A stretch of 29,460 nucleotides of DNA from positions 1 to 29,460 of the IMG/VR virus record IMGVR_UViG_3300020731_000062. One strand, written 5' to 3'. Positions within the stretch are counted from its first letter, which is position 1, and each line of letters starts with the position of its first letter. Shown here piece by piece: positions 1,248 through 19,227 of the stretch. A program made the position numbers and the translations under genes. The stretch is from a virus. The notes beneath the pieces were generated by a model, which saw only the letters and a program-made list of their open reading frames with translations, had not been told where the DNA came from and did not search any database.

Positions 1248-2164
1248 GTGTTGCGTTCCTTCAGCTTGGCTTCAATGGCTTTGGCAAAAGACTTGGCATC
1301 GACACCATCCCAAGGAATTTCATCGTCATCTTTCAGTCCTACCCATTGTTTAGGATGAGTGTAGAGAGGTGTTGTATAGCCACCTTCTTCACGAGTGTGT
1401 TCGGCAGGGCAGATTACATCAAGGATAACTCCGTCTTTTTCCATACCCCAAGCAACAGGCTCATCTTTTGTTTCTAATTTTGGTTGTGGGTGGGTGTAGA
1501 GAAGTGTGCCTTCTGGTGGCGGCTCTCCAAACCAACCATGAATGAGTGATCCATCAATCCATTTGACTACACTACCAACTGGCTCAGGCTCTTGCTTCTC
1601 TGCGTCTGCGATGGCTTGGCGTAGGGATGTGGTTGCTTCATCAACTTGATCAAACACAAAATCATCCCCAGTAAGAGAACCATAACTTATAACGTTCTCC
1701 AACGCCTCAAGCGCCAGTGTCATTGCTTCTTTACTCGTATGTTCATCTTCACTCATCCATGCAACAGGCGCATCTTTTGTTTCTAGTGCTTCTTCTAAGG
1801 CTTTGATAGCGTCTTCTTTTGCTTCACGAATAGATGATCCACAAGTGTCTTTTGATTTCAATACCTCTAACGCTTGTTGCATTACTTCTTTAGTCATGGT
1901 GTTTCCTTGCTCGGATTGATGGAGTAACGGCTCGGTTGTAATGTGCTTACGTCCGTTGTTGTCTGTGATTATTCGTTCAGTCATAAGTTTAACCGCCACA
2001 GGCTCCTGTTCTGGTTGTGCCAATACTTCTTTGATGGAGATGATGGTGCTCCATACTTTATCTTCTGAATAAAGTTTTTCGCCATTTCTCAACAATCGAA
2101 ATGTTTCCTCTCGCACTTCTTTTAGTGTGTCTAGTGCAAGTCGTAGTGTTTCTTCTTTAGTCAT
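1244..2164 (-). CDS. Modular hypothetical protein made of repeated phage units
   Basis: This 306-residue protein is a chain of related units. Three begin with MTKEETLRLALDTLKE (residue 1), MTKEVMQQALEVLKS (residue 90) and TSKEAMTLALEALEN (about 143). Each is followed by an 'AI.AL.EAL'-type helix and a PVA(V/W) segment. Later segments LLYTHPQPK and PLYTHPKQ also repeat. The C-terminus (WVGL ... FAKAIEAKLKERN) matches the gene at 63-440. Met90 (ATG at 1895-1897) has its own AAGGA ribosome binding site, so a 217-residue shorter product is possible. The DNA before Met90 copies the gene junction found at 3026-3050, implying that the gene arose by joining ancestral neighbours. PVAW/YTHP proteins are common in tailed phages; function unknown. 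Confidence 0.8.
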   Translation of the reverse strand: MTKEETLRLALDTLKEVREETFRLLRNGEKLYSEDKVWSTIISIKEVLAQPEQEPVAVKLMTERIITDNNGRKHITTEPLLHQSEQGNTMTKEVMQQALEVLKSKDTCGSSIREAKEDAIKALEEALETKDAPVAWMSEDEHTSKEAMTLALEALENVISYGSLTGDDFVFDQVDEATTSLRQAIADAEKQEPEPVGSVVKWIDGSLIHGWFGEPPPEGTLLYTHPQPKLETKDEPVAWGMEKDGVILDVICPAEHTREEGGYTTPLYTHPKQWVGLKDDDEIPWDGVDAKSFAKAIEAKLKERNT

Positions 2165-2751: not shown

Positions 2752-3026
2752 TCTTGTTCCTTTATAGCTAATGCAATTCGGGTACGTTCTTGATGAAGAA
2801 TGTCCAATGTTTTTCTTTGTATTGGCTCTCCTGTGCCTTGCATAACAATTTTGATGCAAGCCTCACGTTCTTTTAGTATTGCCACTTCGATTTGTAACTC
2901 TGCGTTTTTCAACATCATTTGTCTGCCGTTTTCCATCAAATAATTTGCCAAATACAATACATCGTCTTTTTTGTATGGCATGGTTAATATTTGATCTGCA
3001 ATATCAAATAGTTCTTCTTTAGTCAT
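2748..3026 (-). CDS. Small paralog-family protein (EREACIKIVMQG)
   Basis: This 92-residue helical protein begins MTKEELFDIADQIL and contains KEREACIKIVMQGTGEPIQ, then ends IALAIKEQE. It has the same plan as its neighbours: MTKEE start, EREAC motif, and an 'IA.AI' tail. The ribosome binding site AAGGAAATAATA is formed by the last codons and stop of the upstream gene. That junction is duplicated inside the gene at 1244-2164. Function unknown. Confidence 0.8.
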   Translation of the reverse strand: MTKEELFDIADQILTMPYKKDDVLYLANYLMENGRQMMLKNAELQIEVAILKEREACIKIVMQGTGEPIQRKTLDILHQERTRIALAIKEQE

Positions 3027-3028
3027 TA

Positions 3029-3235
3029 TTATTTCCTTGCTCGGATTAGTTCTGCTATTGCTTTAGGACTGCCTTGCCACGGTTCTTCTGCAATTTTTGC
3101 ACAAGCCTCACGCTCGGTTTTAATTGCACTGTTAACTAACCGCAAAACTTCTTCATCGCAATCTAGTAAGCGTTTAAACGCAACAAGGTTTAATTGTTCT
3201 TTGTGAAATAATTTGATGTATTCTTCATTTGTCAT
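3029..3235 (-). CDS. Small paralog-family protein (EREACAKIAEE ... IRARK)
   Basis: This 68-residue product begins MTNEEYIKLFHKEQ, carries TEREACAKIAEEPWQGSPK and ends IAELIRARK. It is the clearest example of the family design repeated in this operon. It overlaps the upstream mini membrane protein by 11 bases. Only 2 bases separate its stop from the next ATG, so the encoded tail AATCCGAGCAAGGAAA doubles as ribosome binding site for the next gene. Function unknown. Confidence 0.8.
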   Translation of the reverse strand: MTNEEYIKLFHKEQLNLVAFKRLLDCDEEVLRLVNSAIKTEREACAKIAEEPWQGSPKAIAELIRARK

Positions 3236-3607: not shown

Positions 3608-3752
3608 TACTCTCCAACCAAAATATCTTTTTCTCGAGTTCTTCGTTCTTCTTGACCATGTAAGCATAGTCAGTTGCAATCTTCTCTACCAACTTGTTGA
3701 CCTCCTTCAAATGGTGATGCAGCTCAACGAGCGTGTTTATAAAAGGATGCAT
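3597..3752 (-). CDS. Short coiled-coil protein (51 aa)
   Basis: The start at ATG 3752 (MHPFINTLVELHHHLKEVNK) is supported by GAGGA 5 bases upstream. The product has 51 residues, with hydrophobic residues at heptad spacing from residue 7 to the end (VNKLVEKIATDYAYMV, NEELEKKIFWLES). It is probably a short coiled coil that oligomerises. It lies between a membrane protein gene and a globular protein gene, overlapping both. Function unknown. Confidence 0.65.
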   Translation of the reverse strand: MHPFINTLVELHHHLKEVNKLVEKIATDYAYMVKKNEELEKKIFWLESNDA

Positions 3753-3925
3753 ACATTCCTCACAATCAAAGCTATAAAAAAGGCTGCACAAAACACAATC
3801 GCTCCAACAGCGTATGTGCTCATAGTGCGCGGGTAGATGAAGATACAAGCGCCGTACTCCATCGTCTTGGGAAACGCCTCTATAAGCGTCCTTGGGTAGT
3901 GTCTGATAGTTGGGTTTTTGTCCAT
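3737..3925 (-). CDS. Small membrane protein with EAFPKTMEYG motif
   Basis: This 62-residue protein has a polar N-terminus (MDKNPTIRHYPRTLIEAFPK, then TMEYGACIFIY) followed by a hydrophobic span at about residues 39-60 (AVGAIVFCAAFFIALIV). An 'RTLxEAFP-T-EYG' start followed by one membrane span is, from memory, a recurring small protein in aquatic phages. AAAGGA lies 5 bases before the ATG. It is the first gene after the 1.6 kb RNA locus and may be transcribed from the promoter at 4734-4763 if the structured RNA is read through. Confidence 0.75.
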   Translation of the reverse strand: MDKNPTIRHYPRTLIEAFPKTMEYGACIFIYPRTMSTYAVGAIVFCAAFFIALIVRNVCILL

Positions 3926-3989
3926 AGTTTTCCTTTGTTGAGGAGGTGATTTTGGACGGAACGCAAGAGAGCGTCTCTAGGTGTTTTCC

Positions 3990-4115
3990 CTAATAGACAT
4001 TAACGCCAATCAGTTTTTCACACACAAGGTCGTATACGCTTGTGTCCTTCTTACTGCCATATCCAATCCTGGATTTTGTGTACTGGGCTAAAGCGGAAAT
4101 TCGTGGTTTTTTCAT
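3990..4115 (-). CDS. Doubtful 41-aa ORF inside the structured RNA
   Basis: The minus-strand ATG at 4115 opens 41 codons reading MKKPRISALAQYTKSRIGYG and ending CEKLIGVNVY. The composition looks protein-like, but there is no ribosome binding site (the upstream bases are CCCTCCGACTCC). Part of it also forms a perfect 7-pair hairpin (4022-4028/4039-4045). It may be a real small gene at the 3' end of the RNA, or chance. A longer reading from 4178 is less likely. Confidence 0.3.
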   Translation of the reverse strand: MKKPRISALAQYTKSRIGYGSKKDTSVYDLVCEKLIGVNVY

Positions 4116-4580
4116 GGAGTCGGAGGGAGTGAGTGAGCTTTGTTTAGGCGAAGGTTTGCCTAGAGGATAGCAAGCCATCCTCTAAAGCCTTACCTGAGTC
4201 GTCGGTCGCTCGTGTCGCCCCATTCAGGGGAGCTGTAAAGTTGTTCGCCAGCTCCTATACACCGAAATTATCCGCTCAACATGCGGCTTTCTCTAACAAC
4301 GTTTCCGGTGTGCGACGCTATCATTGCCACCCTACCGTCACACTGAAGAACGGATTTAAGTGTTGCCATCCAAGGCAGCTACTGTTGCGCCACGCTTTCC
4401 CTACGCGCTCGGTCTGAGAGACTTCTGTCCGAGATACCTTGCAAGCCAGAACTGTCGCAACTCTGCTCCTTGGGGACTACACTTTTGCTGATGCCATGAC
4501 GCAGTACAGCTACTCATTTCCTCAACCCTCGGTATGAAGTCATACCCGTTAGACTCTTGCAAGAAGTAACGGCAGAAAGC

Positions 4581-4680
4581 AAAAAACCCATTGGTGAACG
4601 AGCTTTAGGCTTGGTTGCCGCATAGACATAGAGCTACACCCCTATATCTAGCTTTGACGAAGCCCGCTCACCAATGGGTT
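4581..4680 (-). terminator. Promoter-proximal 21-bp hairpin followed by T6
   Basis: On the minus strand, arms 4660-4680 and 4585-4605 pair over 21 positions (two G-U pairs) around a 54-base loop that holds its own 9-pair hairpin. TTTTTT at 4581-4586 follows at once. It ends about 147 bases after the predicted transcription start. It could be an attenuator that decides whether the rest of the giant RNA and the operon are transcribed, or simply the first domain of the RNA. The large loop makes it an unusual terminator. Confidence 0.45.
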
Positions 4681-4733
4681 TGCGAGTGCGTTTGTGTAGA
4701 ACTACAACGGGTTACCAAGCCGTTGATGCGCGT

Positions 4734-4763
4734 AGTATATCAAACAACAAAAAAACGTGTCAA
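4734..4763 (-). promoter_or_regulatory. Strong sigma70-type promoter for the giant RNA
   Basis: The minus strand reads TTGACA (4758-4763, a perfect -35), an 18-base spacer rich in T, and TATACT (4734-4739, five of six matches to TATAAT). Predicted start near 4727. It points into the structured RNA and, beyond it, the left operon. It is among the best promoter matches noticed in the window. Confidence 0.75.
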
Positions 4764-4783
4764 GTAATAATTAATGTAGTCTT

Positions 4784-4865
4784 GGCAGTCAACTGCCGTT
4801 TGCCTGCTTTTTAACTGCCGTCTACATGTAGAAATGTAGAAAGCTATGCTTCTGTAGTTTCTACA
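4784..4865. promoter_or_regulatory. Cluster of operator-like dyads upstream of the promoter
   Basis: Immediately upstream of the -35 at 4763 lie: the inverted repeat GGCAGTCAACTGCC (4784-4797); a direct repeat AACTGCCGT at 4791-4799 and 4813-4821, 22 bases apart (about two helical turns); the perfect palindrome TCTACATGTAGA (4821-4832); and arms TGTAGAAA/TTTCTACA (4835-4842, 4858-4865). Dense dyads at helical spacing beside a strong promoter suggest sites for a dimeric regulator. The ribbon-helix-helix protein at 8806-9069 is one candidate, by inference only. Confidence 0.45.
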
Positions 4866-4878
4866 CCTAATTTTGGGC

Positions 4879-4903
4879 AAAAAAAAGCACCCCGAAAGGT
4901 GCT
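4879..4903 (-). terminator. Intrinsic terminator ending the RNA array
   Basis: On the minus strand AGCACC, a TTTCGG loop region and GGTGCT form a compact GC-rich hairpin (4886-4903), followed by T8 (4879-4886). This is a textbook rho-independent terminator. No protein gene lies directly upstream of it, so it most likely ends the structured RNA transcribed from about 5499. Confidence 0.85.
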
Positions 4904-4976
4904 GTTGGTGCTCACATAAAGCAGTGTTTTTCAACTTTGAAGAAGGAAGCACTTACAACGGCGCTAACCCGTTGCA

Positions 4977-5077
4977 CACCAACACGGCTGGGGACTGAAT
5001 GTAAGAGATACTTGTTTTAGAGTACAAGCAAATTGGCTTTTAACCATAGTCAATCCCCATGCGTTTTGGCGTTGGTG
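4977..5077 (-). repeat. RNA array module 1
   Basis: Outer helix 4977-4983/5071-5077 (7 pairs), inner helix 4990-4998/5050-5058 (9 pairs including one U-G on the minus strand). Between them is an internal loop with ACGCAT on one side and AGCCGT on the other (minus strand), which is kept in module 2. The apex contains a CTTGT/ACAAG hairpin. Confidence 0.75.
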
Positions 5078-5127
5078 CTACCTTGGCGATTACTTATGTA
5101 GCTTGATTTTGCCTCGGGCTTTCGCCA

Positions 5128-5216
5128 CACCAACACGGCTGGAGACTGCACTTAAAGTCGGAACGCGTCCCACGGCTTCTAGCTGCCTCAATCCCCATGC
5201 GTGTTAGTTGTTGGTG
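5128..5216 (-). repeat. RNA array module 2
   Basis: Outer helix 5128-5134/5210-5216 (7 pairs), inner helix 5141-5148/5189-5196 (8 pairs, two of them G-U on the minus strand). The internal loop ACGCAT/AGCCGT is the same as in module 1, while the apical part is unrelated in sequence. Both wobble positions would be A-C mismatches if the plus strand were the RNA. Confidence 0.75.
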
Positions 5217-5296
5217 AGGTTTGGATTTCGTGGGATGTCCATTCTCCCGTGCGCCGTTGCGAACCCAACGGTAAGCGTCCTTCGTCTATCGCACTA

Positions 5297-5441
5297 CACC
5301 AACAAGAGTAGAGACTGATTGGAGTCATGACCTCCGTGGAGCATCGGGATGAAGATGTTAACTGCACCTAGCTGGCCAGACGGAACAGTTCAGAGCACCC
5401 ATGACCGACTTCTTCCCACTCAATCTCTACACTTCTTGGTG
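5297..5441 (-). repeat. RNA array module 3 (diverged, covarying)
   Basis: Outer helix 5297-5302/5436-5441 (6 pairs), inner helix 5308-5318/5420-5430 (11 pairs including the conserved U-G). The helix sequence differs from modules 1 and 2 at several positions, but both sides changed together, so pairing is retained. It has the longest apex (about 100 bases), and its 5' end abuts the T-run of the upstream terminator-like hairpin. Confidence 0.7.
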
Positions 5442-5468
5442 AAAAAAATCCCGACACCAGGCCGGGAT
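5442..5468 (-). terminator. Intrinsic terminator after the small nuclease-like gene
   Basis: The minus strand has ATCCCG, a loop, CGGGAT (5448-5468), then T7 (5442-5448). It would end transcripts of the gene at 5507-5818. It also lies only about 30-57 bases after the start predicted for the promoter at 5506-5534, so it may act as an attenuator for the RNA array. A second intrinsic hairpin close to a promoter mirrors the arrangement at 4581-4680. Confidence 0.75.
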
Positions 5469-5505
5469 AAACCCCAAAGGAGTAGCAACTACAGGAAACG
5501 ATTGC

Positions 5506-5534
5506 ATCATAACTCAACAATTCTGACTTGCCAA
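5506..5534 (-). promoter_or_regulatory. Sigma70-type promoter for the RNA array
   Basis: Minus strand: TTGGCA (5529-5534, five of six), a 17-base spacer, TATGAT (5506-5511, five of six). Predicted start near 5499. It overlaps the last codons of the nuclease-like gene, so the array has a promoter of its own just before a region with no gene. Confidence 0.65.
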
Positions 5535-5818
5535 CGGTTATCTACTTTTCTCCAACCATGCACCTCAATCTTTATCCCTGCCGAGAGGACGATTGGGTAA
5601 TTCTCATGGCCTTTGATCTTATTAACCCTACTGCTGACGTTGCCATAAGAGGTAGTTTGGACGCCCATAACCACACCTTCTGACAGACAAAGTATGTCAA
5701 TGAAACCAGCAAAATCATTCTTTCGCTTGGTAAAAAAGTTAAATCTTTCAACGACTTCTGCATAAAAACCTCTCTCCCTCATGTGCTTGAGACTCAACTG
5801 TGTTGTAGATATTGCCAT
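5507..5818 (-). CDS. Small PD-(D/E)XK-fold-like protein
   Basis: The start is chosen at ATG 5818 (MAISTTQLSLKHMRERG) because AAGGGA lies 5 bases upstream; an ATG 6 codons earlier (5836) lacks this. About 103 residues. The order of elements resembles small restriction-endonuclease-fold proteins: an N-terminal helix (SLKHMRERGFYAEVVERFN), then FAGFIDILCLSEGVVMGVQTT, where D in FIDIL could be the acidic metal ligand and VQTT sits where ExK normally lies. The Glu-x-Lys is therefore replaced by Gln-containing VQTT. The fold may be kept for DNA binding, or activity may be altered. A terminator follows. The nuclease assignment is tentative. Confidence 0.6.
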   Translation of the reverse strand: MAISTTQLSLKHMRERGFYAEVVERFNFFTKRKNDFAGFIDILCLSEGVVMGVQTTSYGNVSSRVNKIKGHENYPIVLSAGIKIEVHGWRKVDNRWQVRIVEL

Positions 5819-5825
5819 AAATCCC

Positions 5826-5854
5826 TTGCAAGACATGAATTAATTTAATACACT
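5826..5854 (+). promoter_or_regulatory. Possible promoter for the plus-strand recombination operon
   Basis: TTGCAA (5826-5831), a 17-base spacer and TACACT (5849-5854), each four of six matches to consensus. It lies 35 bases before the first plus-strand gene and within the divergent gap. Moderate quality; the AT-rich stretch between (ATTAATTTAATA) would ease melting. Confidence 0.4.
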
Positions 5855-5888
5855 GTATGGCCCAACTAACCATTCTACAGGAGAAACC

Positions 5889-6080
5889 GTGAACGCATTC
5901 CCGAACCCCAACAACACAGAGCAAACCGGTATGAGTTTGCGAGACTACTTTGCTGCCCAAGCCCTTCAAGGACTAATAGCCAACGGCGAGGCGGTTAACG
6001 AATACTCAGCTGCTCGCGTGGCTTATGGTTTTGCAAACGCAATGATGGAAGTCAGAGATGAAGATAACCAACAAGTTTAA
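5889..6080 (+). CDS. Small phage protein with GMSLRDYFAAQAL motif
   Basis: This 63-residue protein starts at GTG 5889 with AGGAGA just upstream. The segment GMSLRDYFAAQALQGL followed by an ARVAYGFANAMMEVR helix is, from memory, a frequent signature of very small proteins in phages and prophages of Proteobacteria. Its function is not established. As first gene of the plus-strand operon it overlaps the nuclease gene start by 23 bases, so the two are probably translated together. Confidence 0.8.
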   Translation: MNAFPNPNNTEQTGMSLRDYFAAQALQGLIANGEAVNEYSAARVAYGFANAMMEVRDEDNQQV

Positions 6081-6942
6081 TCTCCCAGAGACCTTCGTGA
6101 ATATCATGAAGCGTCCCACCTACAGCAAGGGTCAGGCGAATCTATCTGCCACCGAGCTGATTACCGCCCCCAGGCTTGTACAGCTCCGTAAAGCCCACAT
6201 GGATGAGCTCGAGAGCGACGTGACTGAGAACGTCTGGTCGATCTTTGGCGCAGCCATCCACGGCATTCTAGAGCACGGCAAGGCAGACAACCACATCGTA
6301 GAGGAGCGGATTACCACCACCCTCGAGGGATGGAAGATATCCGGCGCTATAGACCTACAGATCATCAACGAGGATGGGTCTGTGACGATCAACGACTACA
6401 AGACCACCGGTGCTTGGGCTGTCATGAATGAGAAGATCGACTGGGAACTACAGCTAAACATCTATGCTTGGCTTGTCGAGAAGGTCAAGCAGCTGCCGGT
6501 CAAGAAAGTGGAAATCGTGGCCATTATTCGCGATTGGAGCCGTCGAGACGCTGAGTCTAGGCAAGGATACCCCGACGCCCCGATTAAGGTCATACCGATC
6601 CATCTATGGCCTTTTGAGGTCAGAGAAGCATTCATCATCGAGAGAATAAAAGAACATTCCAACGCAGAAATGGACGTTGAAATGGGCGGGAGTCTTCCAT
6701 CCTGTACACCAGACCAGATGTGGGAGAAACCAACCTCTTACGCCATCATGAAAGAGGGCAACAAGCGCGCCACAAGCGTGCATACAAGCGTATTAGAGGC
6801 TCAAGAGGCTTTGACTACGGTGAAAGGAAAGGCGGAAATTGTGACGCGGCCAGGCGAGAGAACACGTTGTGAGACGTTTTGTCAGGTCAACAGTTTCTGT
6901 AATCAATATCAACAATATCTACAGGATAAACAAAATGGCTAG
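6058..6942 (+). CDS. Cas4/RecB-like PD-(D/E)XK nuclease
   Basis: This 294-residue protein is a probable Fe-S-cluster DNA exonuclease. The motifs are in the right order: GAAIHGILEH (His68), GAID (Asp99), NDYKT (Asp113, Lys115) and QLNIYAW (Gln132), the core of the RecB/Cas4 nuclease fold. Cys216 (SCTPDQMW) and the C-terminal cluster Cys271, Cys275, Cys281 (RCETFCQVNSFC) fit a four-cysteine iron-sulfur site. In phages such enzymes accompany single-strand annealing proteins, and here an ERF protein follows two genes later, so a two-part recombination system is likely. The ATG at 6058 is used (GGAAG upstream), but a start at 6106 (MKRPTYSKGQ) is also possible. Confidence 0.85.
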   Translation: MKITNKFNLPETFVNIMKRPTYSKGQANLSATELITAPRLVQLRKAHMDELESDVTENVWSIFGAAIHGILEHGKADNHIVEERITTTLEGWKISGAIDLQIINEDGSVTINDYKTTGAWAVMNEKIDWELQLNIYAWLVEKVKQLPVKKVEIVAIIRDWSRRDAESRQGYPDAPIKVIPIHLWPFEVREAFIIERIKEHSNAEMDVEMGGSLPSCTPDQMWEKPTSYAIMKEGNKRATSVHTSVLEAQEALTTVKGKAEIVTRPGERTRCETFCQVNSFCNQYQQYLQDKQNG

Positions 6943-10257: not shown

Positions 10258-13200
10258 TTATCTCTGTTTCTGCGCATTAGAAACTTGATCATTAAAGGTT
10301 TTCATTATTTGATATTTTTGAGCCTCATACTCACGAATATCTTTTAATGGAACCTTATTTTTTAACATGTTCTTTTTGTTTTTATTCATTTCATCGATCA
10401 CGTTATTGAAATTTGACGCAGCATAATATAACTGGGCTTCTGGGTGGGCAGCCATATATTTGCTTGGGTCTTGACCAGACTTTTGAGTATTGATAATTTC
10501 ATTACCATATTTGTTCATTAGCGTAATGTTGCTGTAGAACTTGTCTTGAATGGCCGCTTGGCTCTTTGCGTCACCATAGAAACGTCCTGCAAGCGGGATT
10601 CTATAGCTGGGCACTGGCTCACTGGTAAAGGCGGATTTAGCCAATTCACCGGCCTTGATGACCTCGCGAGCAGCTCCTCCACCAATTTGACCTGCATAGT
10701 AGTCAATCTCATCCGCGGTTGGACTAATCTTACCCTTGGTGTAGTGGGTTCCAGGAGGTGAACTGACATAGTTTAAGAACTCTGCAATCCACTGGCTTAT
10801 TTGTGTTGAATTCTCACGGCTCCTCATGAATCCAGGTGTGGGTTTAAGAGCGGTATCTTCTTTAAAGATTGGACGCCCAAACGCATCCTTATTCATTGTT
10901 ACAGCAACGATTGGATCTATAGGCGTTGGAGATAACATCTGAGCAATAGTACCGCCACCCAATGGGTTGAATGAATCTAAAAACAGACCCAAGACTTGTG
11001 TTGCTGCATCAGTGATTGGTTTGCCACCGCTAATCAAATGGTTCTTGCCAAGGATGTATTCTGTTGCAATGCGTGCAACACCCGGCACCACGTTGTATCC
11101 AGGGGGCATCGGGAGGGTTAAATACTTCTTGTTGCCAATCGGAATGATGAAGTTTTTATCCCGAATATAGTCTGGCGGCTCATCAGCATCAAACCCAGCC
11201 GCGGCCATCCACAAAGCCTGGAGAACGCCAACAGCAAGACCGCCTGCGATGATTTTTCTTCCTGCTGGACCGTTTAATGTTTTACCAACAAGAACTGCAC
11301 CCTGTACAGCGGGGTTAAAGAACGCATATAGGGCTTGTAGCAGAGGACTGGCTTGGCCTTTGCGGTTAAAGTTGATGGTGACATTCTTGCCAAGACTTGC
11401 TGCACGCTCTTCGCCCAAACCCATATCAAGAGCGACCTTGAATACAGACAGACGAACGGCGTTCTCCATTGCATCGTTGTAGTCCGACAGCAGGTCAAAC
11501 ACATACCTTGCCTTTTTCATGGCGCCGCTTTGAGTCTCGTCAGCCCACAGTCTCTCTATAATGGTTGTGTCCTTGCCGCTATAGTTACCTTTTGCAAATG
11601 ACTCTCTGAAACCGGTCGTTCCACCAGCCCGACGGAATCGATCATAAAGAGCAACATAAGGCCCAGTGACTGCTGCATTTTTTCTGCTTGCTCGCTCGCT
11701 TTGCATGATGGCAAATATTGCTGGAAACACATGTTTGGCAACTTCTTTTTGTTTGCCAGCCAACGGAGTGTTAGTCAAGTTGAATGCGGCACCAAAAGAA
11801 TCGCGCGTAAAGTTGATAACACCAAACACTGGATTAAACTGTGTATTAACAGACGCGATCCAACGCGTTATTTGCGCTGATGTACCCAGCAGGCCACCAA
11901 GGGTCTGGGCATCCAGGTTTGACATCGCCTGGGCCATTCTGATGGCTTTGGGATCCTTTGTATTGAAGAAGATGTAGCGGTCTTTGCCGTTGATCCTGAC
12001 AGGAAACACATTAGGACTGCTTCTGAGGCCTGCATTAATGGTGTACCGAACCTGACCAGTCAAAGGATCGATGCTGGGAGTCTTTGGTTCTTGGATGAAG
12101 TTCTGTGCAGTGGAGATGGGCAGACCCATCGAAACAAGCTCTTGATACAAAGCTGCTTTGTTCTTGATTGCATCAGGATTGACCGGTAACCAAAAGTCTG
12201 GATTGGGATTCTTTAGGGCCATGCCATACAGCGCACGACCAATCCTGGCTTTCTCAGAACGAATGATGGCACTCTCACGCTGGATGGCAATGTTGGCAAG
12301 AATGTCTACCACGGACTTTGTCGAGCCGTAGGCGCGCTTGGATGCGCTTCCTTTGACCTGGAAACCTTTACCCAAGCCAACACCATGATGCATGAAGTCA
12401 AGCTCTTCTTGATCCCTCATGAGTGGGATGTAGTGCTTGTAGGCTTGGTTCCAGTTGTCAATCGTCGCCTGAGTCTCGAGACCGCGGTCAACAAGAATCT
12501 TTTGCGTGCCCTTGATGATGTCGTCTACCTTGGCGGCAATCTTTGCGAGTTCAGCCGCTTTTGTTGGATCAAGATTTTTAAAGTAATCTTTGGCCGCCTG
12601 AGTGCCAATACCGGAGCCAGGCTCGTTATCAACATCCGCAAACCTGGGGTTGATCTGCGCAATAGCATCATTACGCTCTTCGGCGTGGCGGTTGTGTAAA
12701 TACTGCTCTAGATCATCGATACTAAGCTTGGCGCTTATTAAATCCTTGACGACGGGACTCAAGTCATTCTTGAGGAAGTCTTTGATCTCATTGGCTGTCC
12801 TGCCGTGATAGAGTTCTTCCTTCATGTACGCATCAAACGCGTCATCAATCAAGCCGGAATTCTTGGTAATCGCAGCTTGGACTTGCCTTGTATCAACGTG
12901 TTTGTCGTAAATTTTATAGTCAAGCGTGTTAATTAGATGGCCAAGCTTGGTCTCGGGCGCGAGATCCCAGGTCTTCTGTGGTGCGGGCCCTCCAAACACA
13001 TTCCTCTTGCTCGGGGGGCCTGGCGGGAACATATTGCCTTGTCGGCCTAGAGGAGCGCCTCCACCTCCTTGATTGACTTGGCCTTGCTGACCAGCTTGTC
13101 CAGCTCCTGGTAGAGGGAATAGGCTTCCTTGTTGCCCTCCTGTTGGTACAACTGAAGGTTGGTTGACACCCACGCCTTGAGCTGTTCCAGGTGCTTTGGA

Positions 13201-16200
13201 GGCTGAGGACTTGCCGTAATCTTCAAAAGACTTTGAAGTGTTTTGTGTAGTTGATTTTCCATATGCTTCCCTCATTGCAGTAAATGCAGACTCATTTCTT
13301 ACCAAAATGTCCATGAGGGCATCTCGGTAATAGTCCATCATACTTGAATCAGCAAGATAATTAGCGACTTTAATCATCTCCCCGTTGTGTTCAACGCCAT
13401 GACTCATGCTGCCCGTGTGAGCAATCTCATGGATCATCGTGTTGAGAATAGTCTCTCTGACACCAGCCAGTGTTTTTGCGCCAAAATTATAGAATGGATT
13501 AACAAATACACCCTTGTATGGGACTTTGATATGTACGCCACCGTATTTTTTATCAATAGAAACACCACCAAAAAAGAGGTTTTCTGGTTTTAATACATCG
13601 TATGAGTAAAGCCCGCTATCGGCTAGATTTTCTTTCATCTCAACCAACAATGTGCCTAGCTCTGCAAAGAATTTCTCTGGGTCTCCGTAAGGTCTACCAA
13701 CTTCAAGGTAGTCTACGTTTGTGTTGTTATGGAAAATAGGCAGCTTGGGGTCTTGACTCATGTTAACCATGAAGTCAGCCATCACGGGAGCTTCTTTTTC
13801 AGCTGTAAAAGTTGATTCTTTTTTGTTATCTTTTGGCTTTACCAAATCCTCGCCAGTTTTTGTTTTGACAAATCCATCACTAACAAAAATTTCTCGTGGA
13901 ACTGGAGGCAACTCAAATTTATTCTCGGCCCCAGCATTTCTGGTGTCAAAAGCCTTTTTTAGTTTCTTAGATGCATCGGCAATTTCAGAGCCAACTTCGA
14001 GGCGTGGCATTGAAACAATACCCTTGAAGTTTTCTTGCAAGTCTTTGGCCTCATTGCCCCTCGCCACTTGTTTTAAATACTCACCAAGAGACTTGATGTC
14101 CTCATCAATACGTCCTTTAAAGCGTTCACGACTGTTCTCAAACGGATAGTCTGGGTGTTTTGCATCTACATCAGGCTTGACGTTGATAAGAATATCGTAA
14201 GGGATGATTTCGGATTGACTTAAAGGAAAGTCGTGTCTAAATTGGTAAACACCGCTAGACAATACCTTGTGGTTTGGTCTATTGCTGTATCCTGAAGATT
14301 CTTTTCTATCAACGCCAAAATAAACATCAGCATCTCCCCACGAGAAATGCACCGTCGTGAGCTTGGGCATCTTCTTGTCGTCAAAATTAACCCCAACAGG
14401 CAGCGTCTCTTTGTTGCCGTTGAAATCAACAGTTACTTCTACAGGACCAACAAGAGGTTGTTTTAATGCATCAATAGAATCCTTGCTATAAGGGAACCAA
14501 ATATCTTTTTGATCGCCGGTTTTGGGATCTGTATATTTCTCTGGTATCGTGACTGTTACCGATGTACCGTGTTCTGTTGAGGGCGCTTTGGTTTTGTTGA
14601 TATCAAACTTACTGTCAGCAATTGCCCGGGAGTCGGTATCCACAGTAGTTCTAATGCCATCTCTAACAGTATCGAGCTTGAGTCTTTCCGAGCCCATCAT
14701 AAAGCCCATCTTGGCCAGACCCAATCCACCGCTTCGTTCTTTAGGATCGAGATCAGATTTATCAGACCCGGCCACAGTAAAGAATGCATCTTTTACAATG
14801 CTGGGCGTCATACCGCGGGCGTTATCTGTAACGGTGATTGTCCTGTCTTTTTGATTGAGAACAATATTGATCTTGCCCACTTTGACCAGTCCCAACTTGA
14901 CCGCCGCTTTGGACGCATCAAAAGCGTTTTGGAGCAATTCTTTTACAGACACGTCTGCTATGTTGGCCGCATACAGATTGCCGCCCAAAAGCTTAATTAG
15001 GCCTCCCATGTCTGCGTTTAGCTTACCCTTCTCTGTACCGGTCTGTTTGTCGGATGCTTTGGAGGCGGCAACCTTGGGCTCTGCGCCAGGTCTAAAGTTA
15101 AATGTTAATGTTTTTGCAGGCACACGCTGATATGCTTTTGGGTTTTTAGCGTTATCTGGTTTAAATCTAACGTAGTCACCCTCAACACCCAACACTATTC
15201 CTGGGACGCTGCCCATGCTTGCATGATCACCGGGCTGAAACTCTTGAGACTTTTGTTCAACAACATCATGTATTTTGTCATTCAAAGCCTCCATCTCGGC
15301 AGGTTTAGCCTCAACTTTTGGCTGGCCAAATAAATCCTCTTGGCCTTTGGCGGCAGCAGTGTCGGCAGGACGATTACTTCCTGTCAAAGTAAATTCACCG
15401 ACACCTTCGTCGGCCTTGGCTTTAGCCTCCGCCTCTCTCTCGGTTTTTAGACGGTCTTCTTTGGCGCGCTCTGCTGCTCGGACTTCATCTGGTGTTTGAC
15501 CGGTAAGTGCCAATTCTGCTTTACCTGGCTCAATAGCTCTATTCTCGTCTTCGGGCTCAATGACCGTATCAGCGAGGTCAGCTTCTCTTTGTTCATTAAA
15601 GGCTTCTTCAAGGAGGAGGTTGACATCTTTTAACTCCAGTTGTTGTTTGATTTGATCTTCTAACTCTTTAATATTGCCGCGCAAATCTTCTATTTGACTG
15701 GTGATCTTTTCTAATTCTTGCTCGGCATCAAACGTCATGTAATTATATTGGCGCAATCTTTCTTTAATATATTCCGCAGACTCTTTGTCATCAAAATTTG
15801 GTGCATCATGACGCATATCATTGGGTAAATATGCATCAAGTCTTCCGCTTAAAACAATATCAGACAAGCTTTGTCCGCCACTTTTGCTTTTTAATTTTGT
15901 AAATCTATCTTCTAAACTGATATCTCTAACGTCGGCAGCAGTTAAATCCCCCTTCAAGGCACCAAATAGACCAGTTGTTTTAACTTGCCTTCTGGCCATC
16001 TCAGCATATTCTAAATCCTTGTTGAGTTTTTCAAGATACAACTCATCTTCGGTTTTATTTGTCAGCTCCAGAGGAGGTGGAGTTTTTTTAACTCTAGTTT
16101 TTGTTGAAGTAATTAGTTTCTTTGCAGCCTTTATTGATTTATCGTGTTCAATCAAAGCCTTTTTCAATTCAGCATTGGCTTTTTGTATGGCCCTATTTTG

Positions 16201-19200
16201 CTCACCAGGCGTCATCTTGTTGTTCCTGGCCATCTCATCAACAGCAACCTGACCTTTGTCTTTTAATATATCTGCGGTGCTATTTAAATCATCAATTGCT
16301 TTTTGATGTGCGTCCGGATCTTTTGCTGTTGGCATGGACTCAGTTAATTGATTAACCAAATCATTTGATCTATTGATACCATCAACCGCGGGTTGCGCAA
16401 GTTTTTCTAATATGGGCGCCGGGGTTAACTTCGACTTGCCAACTTTAATTTTTGGTTCTATAGCGGCAGTTGGCTTTTCTTCTTCTGCCTTGGGTTCTTC
16501 TGGTGGTAATTTCTCTTCAACTTTTGGAACGACCTGCTCTTCTTTTTTGACTTCAGTAGGCTCATTAAACTTAGCGGCTTTTTCTGCTTGTTCTTTGGCA
16601 AAGTCTTTTGCTTTTGTTTCGGCCTCTTCCCCAAATGTTTTTGTAGGAAATGCTCTAGCTGAACCATTTACATATTTGCCTGCATCATTGTCAAACAAAT
16701 TGGCCACAAAGCCTGTAGGAGTTTTTAACACATGATAGTCGGTATTTTCTCCCATTGGAAAACTTGCCACTTGCTCAACATTGGGTGGTAATTTAGGGGT
16801 CTTTTTATCCTCAGACTTTGGCGCTTCAGCAGGGACAAGTGGTTTAATAGATTTATTAAAGTCGTCTATTTGTTTTTGATCAATTCCTATATCGGCAAGC
16901 TCTGTAAAAAATTCTTTTTTAATGCCGCCATGTTCTTTTATTGAATCCAAAAGAACTTCTTTAATATTGCTCTTTGCATCTTCAGGATTCATTTCTTGAA
17001 GATCTGGTTCTTTCTTTACACCATGCTCATATATTTTATTGGCAAAATCATTAACGTGGTCTTCTAGTGTTTTCTTGGGCTTAATAACTTCAACTGTCGT
17101 TGTATGAGGCGTTAATGTTCCGTCTGGTTTTATCCCGCCAGCATCTGAAAATTCTTGTTCTGCAATTTTTTCAAATGGAATGCCAGCTTTGTACGCTTCA
17201 GATGCGCGAGGCGTCAATTCAATTATGTTTCCCGATACAGGTACAAATGATAATTTGCCAGTTACATTATCTGCAATTATTTTTCCGTTAAGAACATCAC
17301 CTTCGTCTTCTGCAAGATAAGAATTTTTGATTGCAAGATTTGGAGATGTAGTGGAAGATTGAGAAACAGTTCCATTACGCAAAACAACTGAGTGTGTATT
17401 GTTGGCATCATCTGTTTTCTTTAATACCTCAGTGCCAGGCTGTAGATTTTTTCTTTCAACTTTTTCCCAACCAGTTGCATCAAATGCAACATCATTTGGT
17501 TTTACTTCTTCTTTTTTAGCTCCAGTCAACTCATCCAGCATAGCTTGAGTGTCTTGGCTATTAGATGGAGGAGCAACATCTCCTTCTTTTGGCTCTTGCA
17601 AAACTTTCTCGGCGGCTTCCTGTTTTTCAATGTTTGCAGCCGTTAAAGGCGGTCTCTGCACCTCTTCTGGAGCAAACTGAGCATATGCATACGAGTTGGG
17701 ATTTAAACGCGCTACAACGTCTTTATTGATGCCCTCTTGTGTAAATTCAGCATTGGCAACATCTTTTTTGATGGCATTTGCAACAGCAAGGTTGCGGCCA
17801 AACTCAGTTTTCTCTAACTGTCTTTGGGCTGCTTGCGTACCCTTTGTGGCTCCAATAGCAGCGCCAGCGGTAGCGCCAGATTGAATAATTGTTTGCCTTA
17901 AAGTCTCTGCAAGCTGTTCGTAAAGGCCACCTAAGCTTGGATTTTTGTTTGTGCCTATTCCTGGCAATATATCAATTCCATACTGGGTGGCAGTTGTTGC
18001 AAGCTCAGTAGGAAGCTCGTGAGCAATTGCATTCATAAAATAGGCGGCAACGTCATTTGCAGTAACTGGCTTTTTGTTCGGGGCTTCTTTGAACAATGTT
18101 TTCAATCCAGCCAATGACTTGGGCATACCAAACTGCTCAAACATAACTTCTGCGGCCGCTTGCAAACCAGCTCTTGCTGATGCTGCTACCGGGTCAAGAC
18201 CAGCTTGCCTGCCTTCGCCATAAGCTTGGCCATACTGCTGAACGCCAGCAAATGCCAACATTGGTGCGGCAGTTCCGGTAATTGTTCCAATCGCCATAAC
18301 TGGAGCTTGAGTAGCAAGTGTGGCAATTGCATGTTGAGCTGACTTTTCAAATAGGCTTGGTCCTGTTGGTACATTAGCACCCTTCTCGGATTCAACCCTT
18401 TGAGCGCCCATTAGATCTTTGGACATTTGGGCATCGCCAATCAGGTCGGCATAATTTTGCATCAAGCCCATGCCTGTTTGCGCAAGCTGTGATTTAGCTT
18501 CAGCGCCAACTCGAGTTAAAAATCCGGCTCCCTCAAGTTCTTTTGCCTGCTCCTGGACAGCTTTATCGGCTTGTTCACCAACAATATCAGGAGTCAATTG
18601 CTGAAGATCAGGTCGCATGACGCCGCGCTCTGCTTGCACTTGAGCCAATGTTCTAGCGGTCTCTGGATTTGCGCCCTGGTCTATAAAGCGATTTGTTTGT
18701 GTTTCAACTCTGGAGTCTGTAGCAAACTTTGCTTTTTCAGGCTGCAAGTCCATTGCTTTGTAGCGGTCAGCAATGATTTTTGCCGCCCTACCGCCAACAG
18801 TATTTTCTTGCTGAGTCAGTCTATCAATTGTTTGTTGCCTTTTATCTGGATCCATTACATCCAAATTTTTTTGCATACTTGCAACAAATTTTGGATTTAA
18901 TCCTTGCAGGTTTTCTTGCGGCAGTTGAACTCCAGACAATACGCTTTGGTATTCTGGCTTTTGAACATTGGCTATGGCAGACGCAAAATCATCCCCCGTA
19001 GGGTTGCCCAGACTTGGTTCTGGCGCTTCTTGGGTGGGTTGCGCTGGTACTTTTACCAGTTGCTGGTCTGGCACGGAAGGTGCTTTTTCATTTGCAGGCG
19101 TTTCTTTAGGCAATAAATTCTGCAAATTGCTAGAAATCAATTGCATCGCTTGATCAGGCGTTGTGCCTTCAGGAACCTCAAAACGCCCTATGCGTCCATC

Positions 19201-19227
19201 GGGCAATTCAAATCTTGCGATTGGCAT
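10258..19227 (-). CDS. Giant polyvalent virion protein (GHKL ATPase, metzincin-like protease, LPD38)
   Basis: This 2,989-residue protein is probably packaged and ejected with the DNA. It starts MPIARFELPDGRIGRFEVPE, behind AAGGATAAGCC. Regions: glycine/alanine-rich, membrane-active-looking helices at about 285-460; charged coiled-coil linkers at 500-1330, with an SH3-like segment near 1340 (PGIVLGVEGDYVRF); a GHKL ATPase at about 1400-1570 with N-box ELLQNAFDAS (Glu1430, Asn1434), DNARGM (Asp1468), GGLGL (1500-1504) and HGTSVTV (1553-1559); the zinc-protease motif HEIAHTGSMSH (His1933, Glu1934, His1937, His1943); a Gly/Pro/Gln linker at about 2000-2075; and an LPD38-type C-terminal region (VINFTRDSFG at 2470, NFNRKG at 2619, hydrophobic helix near 2658-2679). 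Polyvalent proteins are proposed to protect incoming DNA or manipulate the host. No single enzymatic role is proven here. Confidence 0.85.
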   Translation of the reverse strand: MPIARFELPDGRIGRFEVPEGTTPDQAMQLISSNLQNLLPKETPANEKAPSVPDQQLVKVPAQPTQEAPEPSLGNPTGDDFASAIANVQKPEYQSVLSGVQLPQENLQGLNPKFVASMQKNLDVMDPDKRQQTIDRLTQQENTVGGRAAKIIADRYKAMDLQPEKAKFATDSRVETQTNRFIDQGANPETARTLAQVQAERGVMRPDLQQLTPDIVGEQADKAVQEQAKELEGAGFLTRVGAEAKSQLAQTGMGLMQNYADLIGDAQMSKDLMGAQRVESEKGANVPTGPSLFEKSAQHAIATLATQAPVMAIGTITGTAAPMLAFAGVQQYGQAYGEGRQAGLDPVAASARAGLQAAAEVMFEQFGMPKSLAGLKTLFKEAPNKKPVTANDVAAYFMNAIAHELPTELATTATQYGIDILPGIGTNKNPSLGGLYEQLAETLRQTIIQSGATAGAAIGATKGTQAAQRQLEKTEFGRNLAVANAIKKDVANAEFTQEGINKDVVARLNPNSYAYAQFAPEEVQRPPLTAANIEKQEAAEKVLQEPKEGDVAPPSNSQDTQAMLDELTGAKKEEVKPNDVAFDATGWEKVERKNLQPGTEVLKKTDDANNTHSVVLRNGTVSQSSTTSPNLAIKNSYLAEDEGDVLNGKIIADNVTGKLSFVPVSGNIIELTPRASEAYKAGIPFEKIAEQEFSDAGGIKPDGTLTPHTTTVEVIKPKKTLEDHVNDFANKIYEHGVKKEPDLQEMNPEDAKSNIKEVLLDSIKEHGGIKKEFFTELADIGIDQKQIDDFNKSIKPLVPAEAPKSEDKKTPKLPPNVEQVASFPMGENTDYHVLKTPTGFVANLFDNDAGKYVNGSARAFPTKTFGEEAETKAKDFAKEQAEKAAKFNEPTEVKKEEQVVPKVEEKLPPEEPKAEEEKPTAAIEPKIKVGKSKLTPAPILEKLAQPAVDGINRSNDLVNQLTESMPTAKDPDAHQKAIDDLNSTADILKDKGQVAVDEMARNNKMTPGEQNRAIQKANAELKKALIEHDKSIKAAKKLITSTKTRVKKTPPPLELTNKTEDELYLEKLNKDLEYAEMARRQVKTTGLFGALKGDLTAADVRDISLEDRFTKLKSKSGGQSLSDIVLSGRLDAYLPNDMRHDAPNFDDKESAEYIKERLRQYNYMTFDAEQELEKITSQIEDLRGNIKELEDQIKQQLELKDVNLLLEEAFNEQREADLADTVIEPEDENRAIEPGKAELALTGQTPDEVRAAERAKEDRLKTEREAEAKAKADEGVGEFTLTGSNRPADTAAAKGQEDLFGQPKVEAKPAEMEALNDKIHDVVEQKSQEFQPGDHASMGSVPGIVLGVEGDYVRFKPDNAKNPKAYQRVPAKTLTFNFRPGAEPKVAASKASDKQTGTEKGKLNADMGGLIKLLGGNLYAANIADVSVKELLQNAFDASKAAVKLGLVKVGKINIVLNQKDRTITVTDNARGMTPSIVKDAFFTVAGSDKSDLDPKERSGGLGLAKMGFMMGSERLKLDTVRDGIRTTVDTDSRAIADSKFDINKTKAPSTEHGTSVTVTIPEKYTDPKTGDQKDIWFPYSKDSIDALKQPLVGPVEVTVDFNGNKETLPVGVNFDDKKMPKLTTVHFSWGDADVYFGVDRKESSGYSNRPNHKVLSSGVYQFRHDFPLSQSEIIPYDILINVKPDVDAKHPDYPFENSRERFKGRIDEDIKSLGEYLKQVARGNEAKDLQENFKGIVSMPRLEVGSEIADASKKLKKAFDTRNAGAENKFELPPVPREIFVSDGFVKTKTGEDLVKPKDNKKESTFTAEKEAPVMADFMVNMSQDPKLPIFHNNTNVDYLEVGRPYGDPEKFFAELGTLLVEMKENLADSGLYSYDVLKPENLFFGGVSIDKKYGGVHIKVPYKGVFVNPFYNFGAKTLAGVRETILNTMIHEIAHTGSMSHGVEHNGEMIKVANYLADSSMMDYYRDALMDILVRNESAFTAMREAYGKSTTQNTSKSFEDYGKSSASKAPGTAQGVGVNQPSVVPTGGQQGSLFPLPGAGQAGQQGQVNQGGGGAPLGRQGNMFPPGPPSKRNVFGGPAPQKTWDLAPETKLGHLINTLDYKIYDKHVDTRQVQAAITKNSGLIDDAFDAYMKEELYHGRTANEIKDFLKNDLSPVVKDLISAKLSIDDLEQYLHNRHAEERNDAIAQINPRFADVDNEPGSGIGTQAAKDYFKNLDPTKAAELAKIAAKVDDIIKGTQKILVDRGLETQATIDNWNQAYKHYIPLMRDQEELDFMHHGVGLGKGFQVKGSASKRAYGSTKSVVDILANIAIQRESAIIRSEKARIGRALYGMALKNPNPDFWLPVNPDAIKNKAALYQELVSMGLPISTAQNFIQEPKTPSIDPLTGQVRYTINAGLRSSPNVFPVRINGKDRYIFFNTKDPKAIRMAQAMSNLDAQTLGGLLGTSAQITRWIASVNTQFNPVFGVINFTRDSFGAAFNLTNTPLAGKQKEVAKHVFPAIFAIMQSERASRKNAAVTGPYVALYDRFRRAGGTTGFRESFAKGNYSGKDTTIIERLWADETQSGAMKKARYVFDLLSDYNDAMENAVRLSVFKVALDMGLGEERAASLGKNVTINFNRKGQASPLLQALYAFFNPAVQGAVLVGKTLNGPAGRKIIAGGLAVGVLQALWMAAAGFDADEPPDYIRDKNFIIPIGNKKYLTLPMPPGYNVVPGVARIATEYILGKNHLISGGKPITDAATQVLGLFLDSFNPLGGGTIAQMLSPTPIDPIVAVTMNKDAFGRPIFKEDTALKPTPGFMRSRENSTQISQWIAEFLNYVSSPPGTHYTKGKISPTADEIDYYAGQIGGGAAREVIKAGELAKSAFTSEPVPSYRIPLAGRFYGDAKSQAAIQDKFYSNITLMNKYGNEIINTQKSGQDPSKYMAAHPEAQLYYAASNFNNVIDEMNKNKKNMLKNKVPLKDIREYEAQKYQIMKTFNDQVSNAQKQR

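Follow-up and report, generated by a model that had tools for sequence, protein, structure and literature searches.

Does the minus strand of this virus genome carry one very large, ornate noncoding RNA, possibly GOLLD, or an RNA put together from separable parts? The window, meaning the whole stretch of DNA analysed here, is a 29,460-base virus record in which a single minus-strand reading frame of 2,989 aa (10258-19227) takes up almost one third of the length. A preliminary description had assigned about 770 bases, ending at 3960, to one structured minus-strand RNA. The structured RNA at this locus is genuine and lies on the minus strand, with covariation among relatives both in a first part, the header, and in the body that follows it (body A). 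Judged from the genomes compared, the RNA is a combination of these two modules and not one fixed 770-base unit or a single class, as header and body were found apart and also in other combinations. The relatives are environmental viral contigs (numbered L below), except for Acidovorax phage AP1, MW202545.1 and the chromosomal loci of RF02932.

Searches against known RNA families

With Rfam release 15, nothing in the whole window reached the gathering score. When 3700-5900 was searched with permissive filters, no GOLLD, ROOL, HEARO or intron (group I or II) appeared at E values up to 5, and only weak sub-threshold matches of sRNA type were returned, mostly around an unrelated terminator. GOLLD and ROOL were likewise absent at gathering score from the related loci, no tRNA was found in the window, and in the 145 related loci scanned with ARAGORN none lay within 3 kb, so the proposal that the RNA is possibly GOLLD was not borne out. 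Loci with tRNA were seen as exceptions in L125 and in L186 (MW202545.1), the latter with five tRNA genes at 1245-1726 directly upstream of its header-body RNA. The preliminary description had also foreseen that the lack of a significant match to the GOLLD and ROOL models would point to a new large RNA. No significant match was the outcome, and strong covariation speaks for that alternative, but the RNA consists of two modules, and Rfam already lists one of the exchangeable parts as RF02932.

The complete 806 nt folded with z -3.0 against shuffles on the minus strand and z -2.2 on the plus strand. Because this gain is modest, the proof of the RNA comes from its relatives and not from folding energy. 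Among cultured phages, blastn gave no match to the region, body A, the body-C loci or the L164-type header, and the L186 header matched only itself; RF02932-type bodies were the only ones found in cultured phages.

Table 1. Features of the RNA locus, in window positions
Feature	Coordinates	Strand	Evidence
Array of three hairpin units, upstream of the header	4975..5443	-	direct and inverted repeats
Sigma-70-type promoter TTGACA-N18-TATACT	4734..4763	-	11 of 12 consensus positions
Header RNA type 1, about 150 nt	4581..4731	-	R1 match of 160.8 bits, covariation, folding z -7.9 against shuffles
P1 hairpin CAACGG/CCGUUG	4705..4725	-	double changes in all 6 pairs
Pseudoknot PK1: 4694-4699 (CUACAC) with 4634-4639 (GUGUAG) in the P3 loop	4634..4699	-	complementarity scored per sequence
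Loop-loop contact: P1 loop 4714-4718 (UUGGU) with P4 loop 4611-4615 (ACCAA)		-	complementarity; covaries across header types
P2 stem, 21-22 bp (4660-4681 with 4584-4605), encloses P3 and P4	4584..4681	-	inverted repeat; covariation on helices 4-6
U-run past P2, intrinsic-terminator-like (U6 in the window)	4581..4586	-	U-run kept in header types of unrelated sequence
Body A RNA, about 450-470 nt, 17 helices	4116..4572 (approx.)	-	covariation, ten sequences
HNH endonuclease ORF remnant, 41 codons	3990..4115	-	by-eye alignment to the N-terminus of intact L114 and L174 HNH proteins
Right-hand junction of the exchanged cassette (TGTCTATTAGGG and neighbours)	3994..4006	-	homology with L003 and L009 (body C) resumes at 3999

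Promoter and type-1 header

We gathered 80 related viral loci via the neighbouring exonuclease (6058-6942). Local alignment yielded two separate conserved blocks, the first about 170 nt past the promoter (header) and the next about 470 nt (body A), and body A was present in only part of the header-bearing loci. The promoter named in the preliminary description was confirmed, and sigma-70-like promoter pairs also lie upstream of the type-1 headers of those aligned relatives that have enough upstream sequence. A 20-base invariant piece of the header retrieved 82 stretches from IMG/VR, which contain 64 distinct headers. The header is composed, in order, of the P1 hairpin, a single strand that forms PK1 with the P3 loop, P2 enclosing P3 and a small hairpin P4, and the U-run; the alignment behind the R1 model that scores it includes the window header.

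In 24 diverse sequences, 30 of the 50 pairs of the type-1 header were changed on both sides and none of 500 shuffles reached any of five measures, as counted on a MAFFT alignment that was not structure-fitted and with a structure derived from the window sequence. The sequence does contain the long helix that had been described (P2), and its two wobble pairs remained G-U in 22 of 24 aligned relatives. Since these pairs are conserved as G-U, the assignment to the minus strand is right. P2 is a stable stem directly followed by U6, as in an intrinsic terminator or attenuator. PK1 was scored per sequence because it was misaligned in the header alignment, with 34% of cells paired. Hypervariable complementarity, mostly of 6-8 nt, was present in nearly all 64 headers and scored 15.1 with the own partner vs 10.9 with swapped partners, while the sequence itself varied by phage (CUACAC/GUGUAG, CAUCGA/UCGAUG, CACUGA/UCAGUG). 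Type 1 alone gives no covariation for the contact between the P1 and P4 loops, as both loops are nearly invariant.

A switch in which the 5' strand of P1 pairs with the linker past the U-run was rejected, with shuffles as high in 880 of 1000 cases for type 1, 24 of 1000 for other types and 206 of 1000 combined. A bacterial copy of the type-1 header was likewise discarded; its sole match in a bacterial contig (L176) was a chance one, inside an EF-Ts-like gene named by eye. The R1 model had no match in 399 genomes of one bacterial order, a search that ran without a positive control.

Body A

The ten sequences of body A have a mean column identity of 72%, with 97.0% of cells paired over 85 predicted pairs. 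Double changes occurred in 45 of the 85 pairs, none of 500 shuffles was as high and every slid control was far lower, where the counting used the same MAFFT alignment, not structure-fitted, from which the structure had been predicted. At least ten helices had been claimed for the region, and body A alone has 17 with covariation support. The pseudoknot suggested between 4240-4245 and 4295-4300 did not survive the comparison: it is fully paired in only two of the ten sequences (window and L077), shows no covariation and is broken in the other eight. Other contacts of the pseudoknot type, namely PK1 and the loop-loop contact of the header, hold up. The proposed end at 3960 was also not sustained, as the homology of body A stops at about 4110, 4115-3990 is a truncated HNH frame and the sequence outward from about 4000 is a flank common to phages with another body. 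A pattern search for the body returned 14 stretches, several of them with body A behind quite different upstream sequence. Against the RF02932 model, the body A of the window had no match.

Exchange of headers and bodies

At this site, phages that are otherwise nearly identical can have a different header or a different body. The window, L003, L009 and L004 have common flanks but differ in header, body or both; L003 and L009 are the carriers of body C among these flank-sharing relatives. Behind the type-1 header, we found body B in L004, L083 and L132, body C/D in L009, L118, L022 and L084, and further bodies as well. Headers without a body (L140 and L099) and bodies without a header (RF02932 in AP1, and 8 of 55 body-C upstreams) also occur, and therefore the modules are separable. 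By comparison of these genomes, headers and bodies have evidently been exchanged independently between close relatives.

In L086, the body behind the type-1 header is Betaproteobacteria-1 (RF02932; 101.2 bits, 1481-1598, minus strand). L186, which is MW202545.1 of the Manatee Spring phage, has an RF02932 body (100.1 bits, 1995-2112, plus strand) behind a different header of the same architecture. The gathering score of RF02932 is 49.4 bits, and its model of 120 nt does not cover the header. A further RF02932 body lies in L185 (2430-2553, plus strand). In the cultured Acidovorax phage AP1, whose host is Paracidovorax oryzae, RF02932 follows the primase gene and has no header. Of 399 genomes sampled from the order to which an Alcaligenaceae genome belongs, 6 also had RF02932, four of them above the cut-off. 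A literature search on the Betaproteobacteria-1 RNA and on put antitermination returned nothing usable. Small ORFs behind body A (L061, 108 aa) and behind RF02932 (L179) have a common motif, FGIPYPLRPGWAKR / LHIPFPLKNGWPRK, seen only there, and the L061 protein had no Pfam or PHROG match.

Other header types and a coevolving loop pair

Around the exonuclease, L003 and the window are 89% identical, yet the header that L003 carries at this site is unlike that of the window in sequence. Its P1 is CAUUGGUGGGGAUCAAUG, the loop GGGGAU pairs with AUCCCC within P2, and a longer U-run follows. Scanning 2.1 Mb of fetched loci for the architecture (promoter, P1, loop pairing, stem of at least 13 bp and U-run) gave 72 matches, one per locus, among which L069 is doubtful, against no match when about 30% of the loci were shuffled as a control; the 72 are a biased sample because many type-1 loci had been fetched via the header. 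New header types were seen in L012, L026, L031, L035, L052, L055, L058, L072 and L080. The header types have almost no sequence in common, and the architecture is kept.

To avoid a start from headers, we sampled from body C, whose motif in IMG/VR gave 73 stretches with 55 distinct upstreams. A long stem with a U-run was present in 47 of the 55 (7 in shuffled upstreams), the stem, U-run and a kissing P1 together in 46 (6 in shuffled upstreams), and a promoter-like pair in 38. From the U-run to the body, the gap was 14-22 nt in 39 of 46 headers, with 16 nt as the mode (19 headers). With the best P1 hairpin selected anew for each partner, the longest loop match in 45 distinct headers was 7.69 nt with the own stem vs 5.16 +/- 0.15 nt with the stems of others, and the maximum of 2000 shuffles was 5.73. 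As the own stem is matched better than swapped partners, the pairing between the P1 and P2 loops is real and coevolving. Such covariation is compatible with loop pairing inside one RNA or between RNAs alike.

HNH genes and neighbourhood

In six relatives (L114, L137, L164, L167, L173 and L174), an HNH gene begins with its start codon right where body A ends, and L061, L077 and L107 have body A without HNH. Pfam PF01844 was found in the L114 protein, the 41-aa remnant of the window had no Pfam match, and three HNH proteins (117-178 aa) contain only the PF01844-type HNH domain in Pfam. Together, the remnant and the junction resemble a scar left when cassettes were exchanged. Most economically, the HNH genes would be read as homing endonucleases that travel with the RNA locus and spread it.

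The units of the hairpin array have constant stems and variable apical parts, and the array is flanked by terminator-like sites at 5468-5448 and 4903-4886. Array units also occur in about 20 other loci, on the strand of the header, with their 3' end mostly 84-342 nt upstream of its promoter; array, header and body therefore form one neighbourhood. Downstream of the header, 76% of the coding is on the strand of the header, upstream 71% is on the opposite strand, and the first same-strand frame starts at a median of 417 nt past the U-run. The downstream genes vary, including HNH genes (Pfam) and, by eye, DNA methyltransferases, ParB-like proteins and helicases, so the RNA does not belong to any single gene as its leader. 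Elsewhere in the window, 1881-1918, 2149-2192 and 3012-3047, between small minus-strand genes, match one piece of L009 and may be short repeats or paralogous gene starts.

Proposed mechanism and alternatives

Across the loci compared, the layout is shown to consist of a promoter-like sequence, a header of about 150 nt, a U-run, usually 14-22 nt of spacing and then one of several unrelated structured bodies of 120-470 nt. A probable role for the header is that of a terminator-capped small RNA or attenuator that controls read-through into the body and the operon. We read the region as a modular phage noncoding-RNA locus with the header as attenuator, the body as effector and the HNH gene as homing passenger, and give this reading a rough probability of 0.45. 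Transcription from 4734 would produce a stable, terminator-capped header RNA of about 150 nt, and a fraction of polymerases would read through to a header-plus-body RNA of about 620 nt and the operon behind it. The contact from P1 to the P2 loop, private to each header type, may set how often the stem terminates, or may let headers recognise each other in trans. The body would be the effector RNA, and the HNH enzyme, decayed in the window, would be a homing passenger that drives the swaps. We favour the modular attenuator because the header covaries and holds a pseudoknot, the U-run is kept, the spacing is near-fixed, the loops coevolve and body A covaries; also because parts are swapped within shared flanks, HNH genes start at the body end, downstream coding is on the same strand and the modules are separable. 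Against it, efficient termination at the stem would leave the body little transcribed, and the switch between P1 and the linker found no support. HNH stands beside the body in only a minority of loci (behind 12 of 64 type-1 headers and in 7 of 65 body-C loci), and 5 of 38 headers have mostly opposite-strand genes downstream.

The chance that the region merely folds by accident or encodes protein, with no functional RNA, is next to nil. Its energy is only modestly better than that of shuffles, but in header and body A alike, all shuffles and slid controls fall far short of the compensatory changes observed, and for these two parts we reject this explanation on evolutionary conservation. Relatives differ by indels whose lengths are not multiples of three, and the body is not spanned by any reading frame. 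A weightier alternative, though still an unlikely one, is a single large ornate RNA like GOLLD or ROOL, in which header and body would be domains of a homo-oligomer and the P1-loop/P2-loop pairing an inter-subunit kissing loop. The size of about 620 nt, the phage location and the dense covarying structure would suit it, as would the type-private loop pairs and the near-fixed spacing of header and body, and assembly through intermolecular kissing loops is known for GOLLD and ROOL (PMC12286853). However, a U-run stands between the parts, headers and bodies are found apart, one header goes with bodies of unrelated sequence, and neither GOLLD nor ROOL matches in sequence; the covariation itself is blind to whether pairing is intra- or intermolecular.

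The position as a leader heading a same-strand operon also bears on two readings by analogy with known phage RNAs. We regard it as quite unlikely that the locus confers RNA immunity or incompatibility between phages, where the P1 loop of a resident header would pair with the P2 loop of an incoming phage of the same type and terminate its early operon. In its favour, the loops have diversified into dozens of types with the architecture kept, and close relatives differ in type, but across 64 phages the type-1 loops hardly vary, an odd property for immunity types. It is hardly likely that the nascent header acts as a put-like processive antiterminator, modifying RNA polymerase so that it would read through its own and later terminators. 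The header sits directly behind the promoter, and many unpaired bases are invariant in type-1 headers; yet put elements have a sequence core in common whereas header types share almost no sequence, and some headers are followed by opposite-strand genes. Very improbable is a mobile intron or RNA-guided element, with body and HNH gene forming a self-splicing intron or an OMEGA-like guide and nuclease. The HNH ORF does start directly at the RNA end, and cassettes are swapped between close relatives, but no Rfam intron or HEARO matched at E values up to 5, the HNH proteins are small with the HNH domain only, body A occurs without HNH in three loci, and several unrelated bodies occupy the same site.

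Beyond the modular attenuator, we tentatively raise a broader possibility, which we consider doubtful: an undescribed modular system in which headers with hypervariable loops, in dozens of types, stand at near-fixed spacing to unrelated effector RNAs and recombine freely with the help of HNH enzymes, the loop pairing being a specificity code. If so, each phage would have an RNA specificity code of its own, serving assembly or immunity, while effector RNAs would come from a common pool that includes Betaproteobacteria-1. On the function of large RNAs of phages, GOLLD and ROOL among them, these genomes offer a natural experiment with swapped parts in close relatives. With swapped parts, covarying loop pairs and a known orphan family as a module, it can be tested by domain swaps which part does what. 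The orphan Betaproteobacteria-1 RNA gains a context, and the alignments are ready for new RNA families.

Comparison with known systems

In HEARO/IscB elements, an RNA lies directly before an HNH-bearing nuclease ORF. The present locus is alike in having a structured RNA directly before an HNH ORF, but it differs in that HEARO did not match, none of the three HNH proteins searched in Pfam was a RuvC-HNH (IscB-like) nuclease, and the HNH-only proteins are small and often absent, with no more than a remnant in the window. The CI RNA of phage P4 is a small RNA that forces termination of the early operon, and put of phage HK022 is a nascent RNA element that modifies RNA polymerase for processive antitermination. 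Both resemble the header as small structured RNAs at the start of a phage operon and tied to termination; to our knowledge, neither has a long second RNA body behind it.

GOLLD is often found near tRNA islands, a neighbourhood described for ROOL as well, forms a homo-oligomeric nanocage and is expressed more strongly during lysis. The RNA at this locus is also large, ornate and phage-encoded, but there is no covariance-model match and linkage to tRNA is not general (0 of 145 loci; exceptions L125 and MW202545.1). GOLLD has a less conserved 5' part and a universally conserved 3' region (PMC12286853). At the present locus, a common conserved 3' region is missing, because the 3' body is the part exchanged in close relatives. 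ROOL env-120 has 659 nt (PMC12286853), and ROOL is comparable in size, phage origin and loop-loop contacts, whereas its sequence does not match and the RNA studied here has two modules with a U-run between them. As for Betaproteobacteria-1, body A does not match it, the Rfam model has no header and the AP1 copy stands without one; even so, in L086 RF02932 takes the body position after a type-1 header, and in MW202545.1 it does so after another header of the same architecture.
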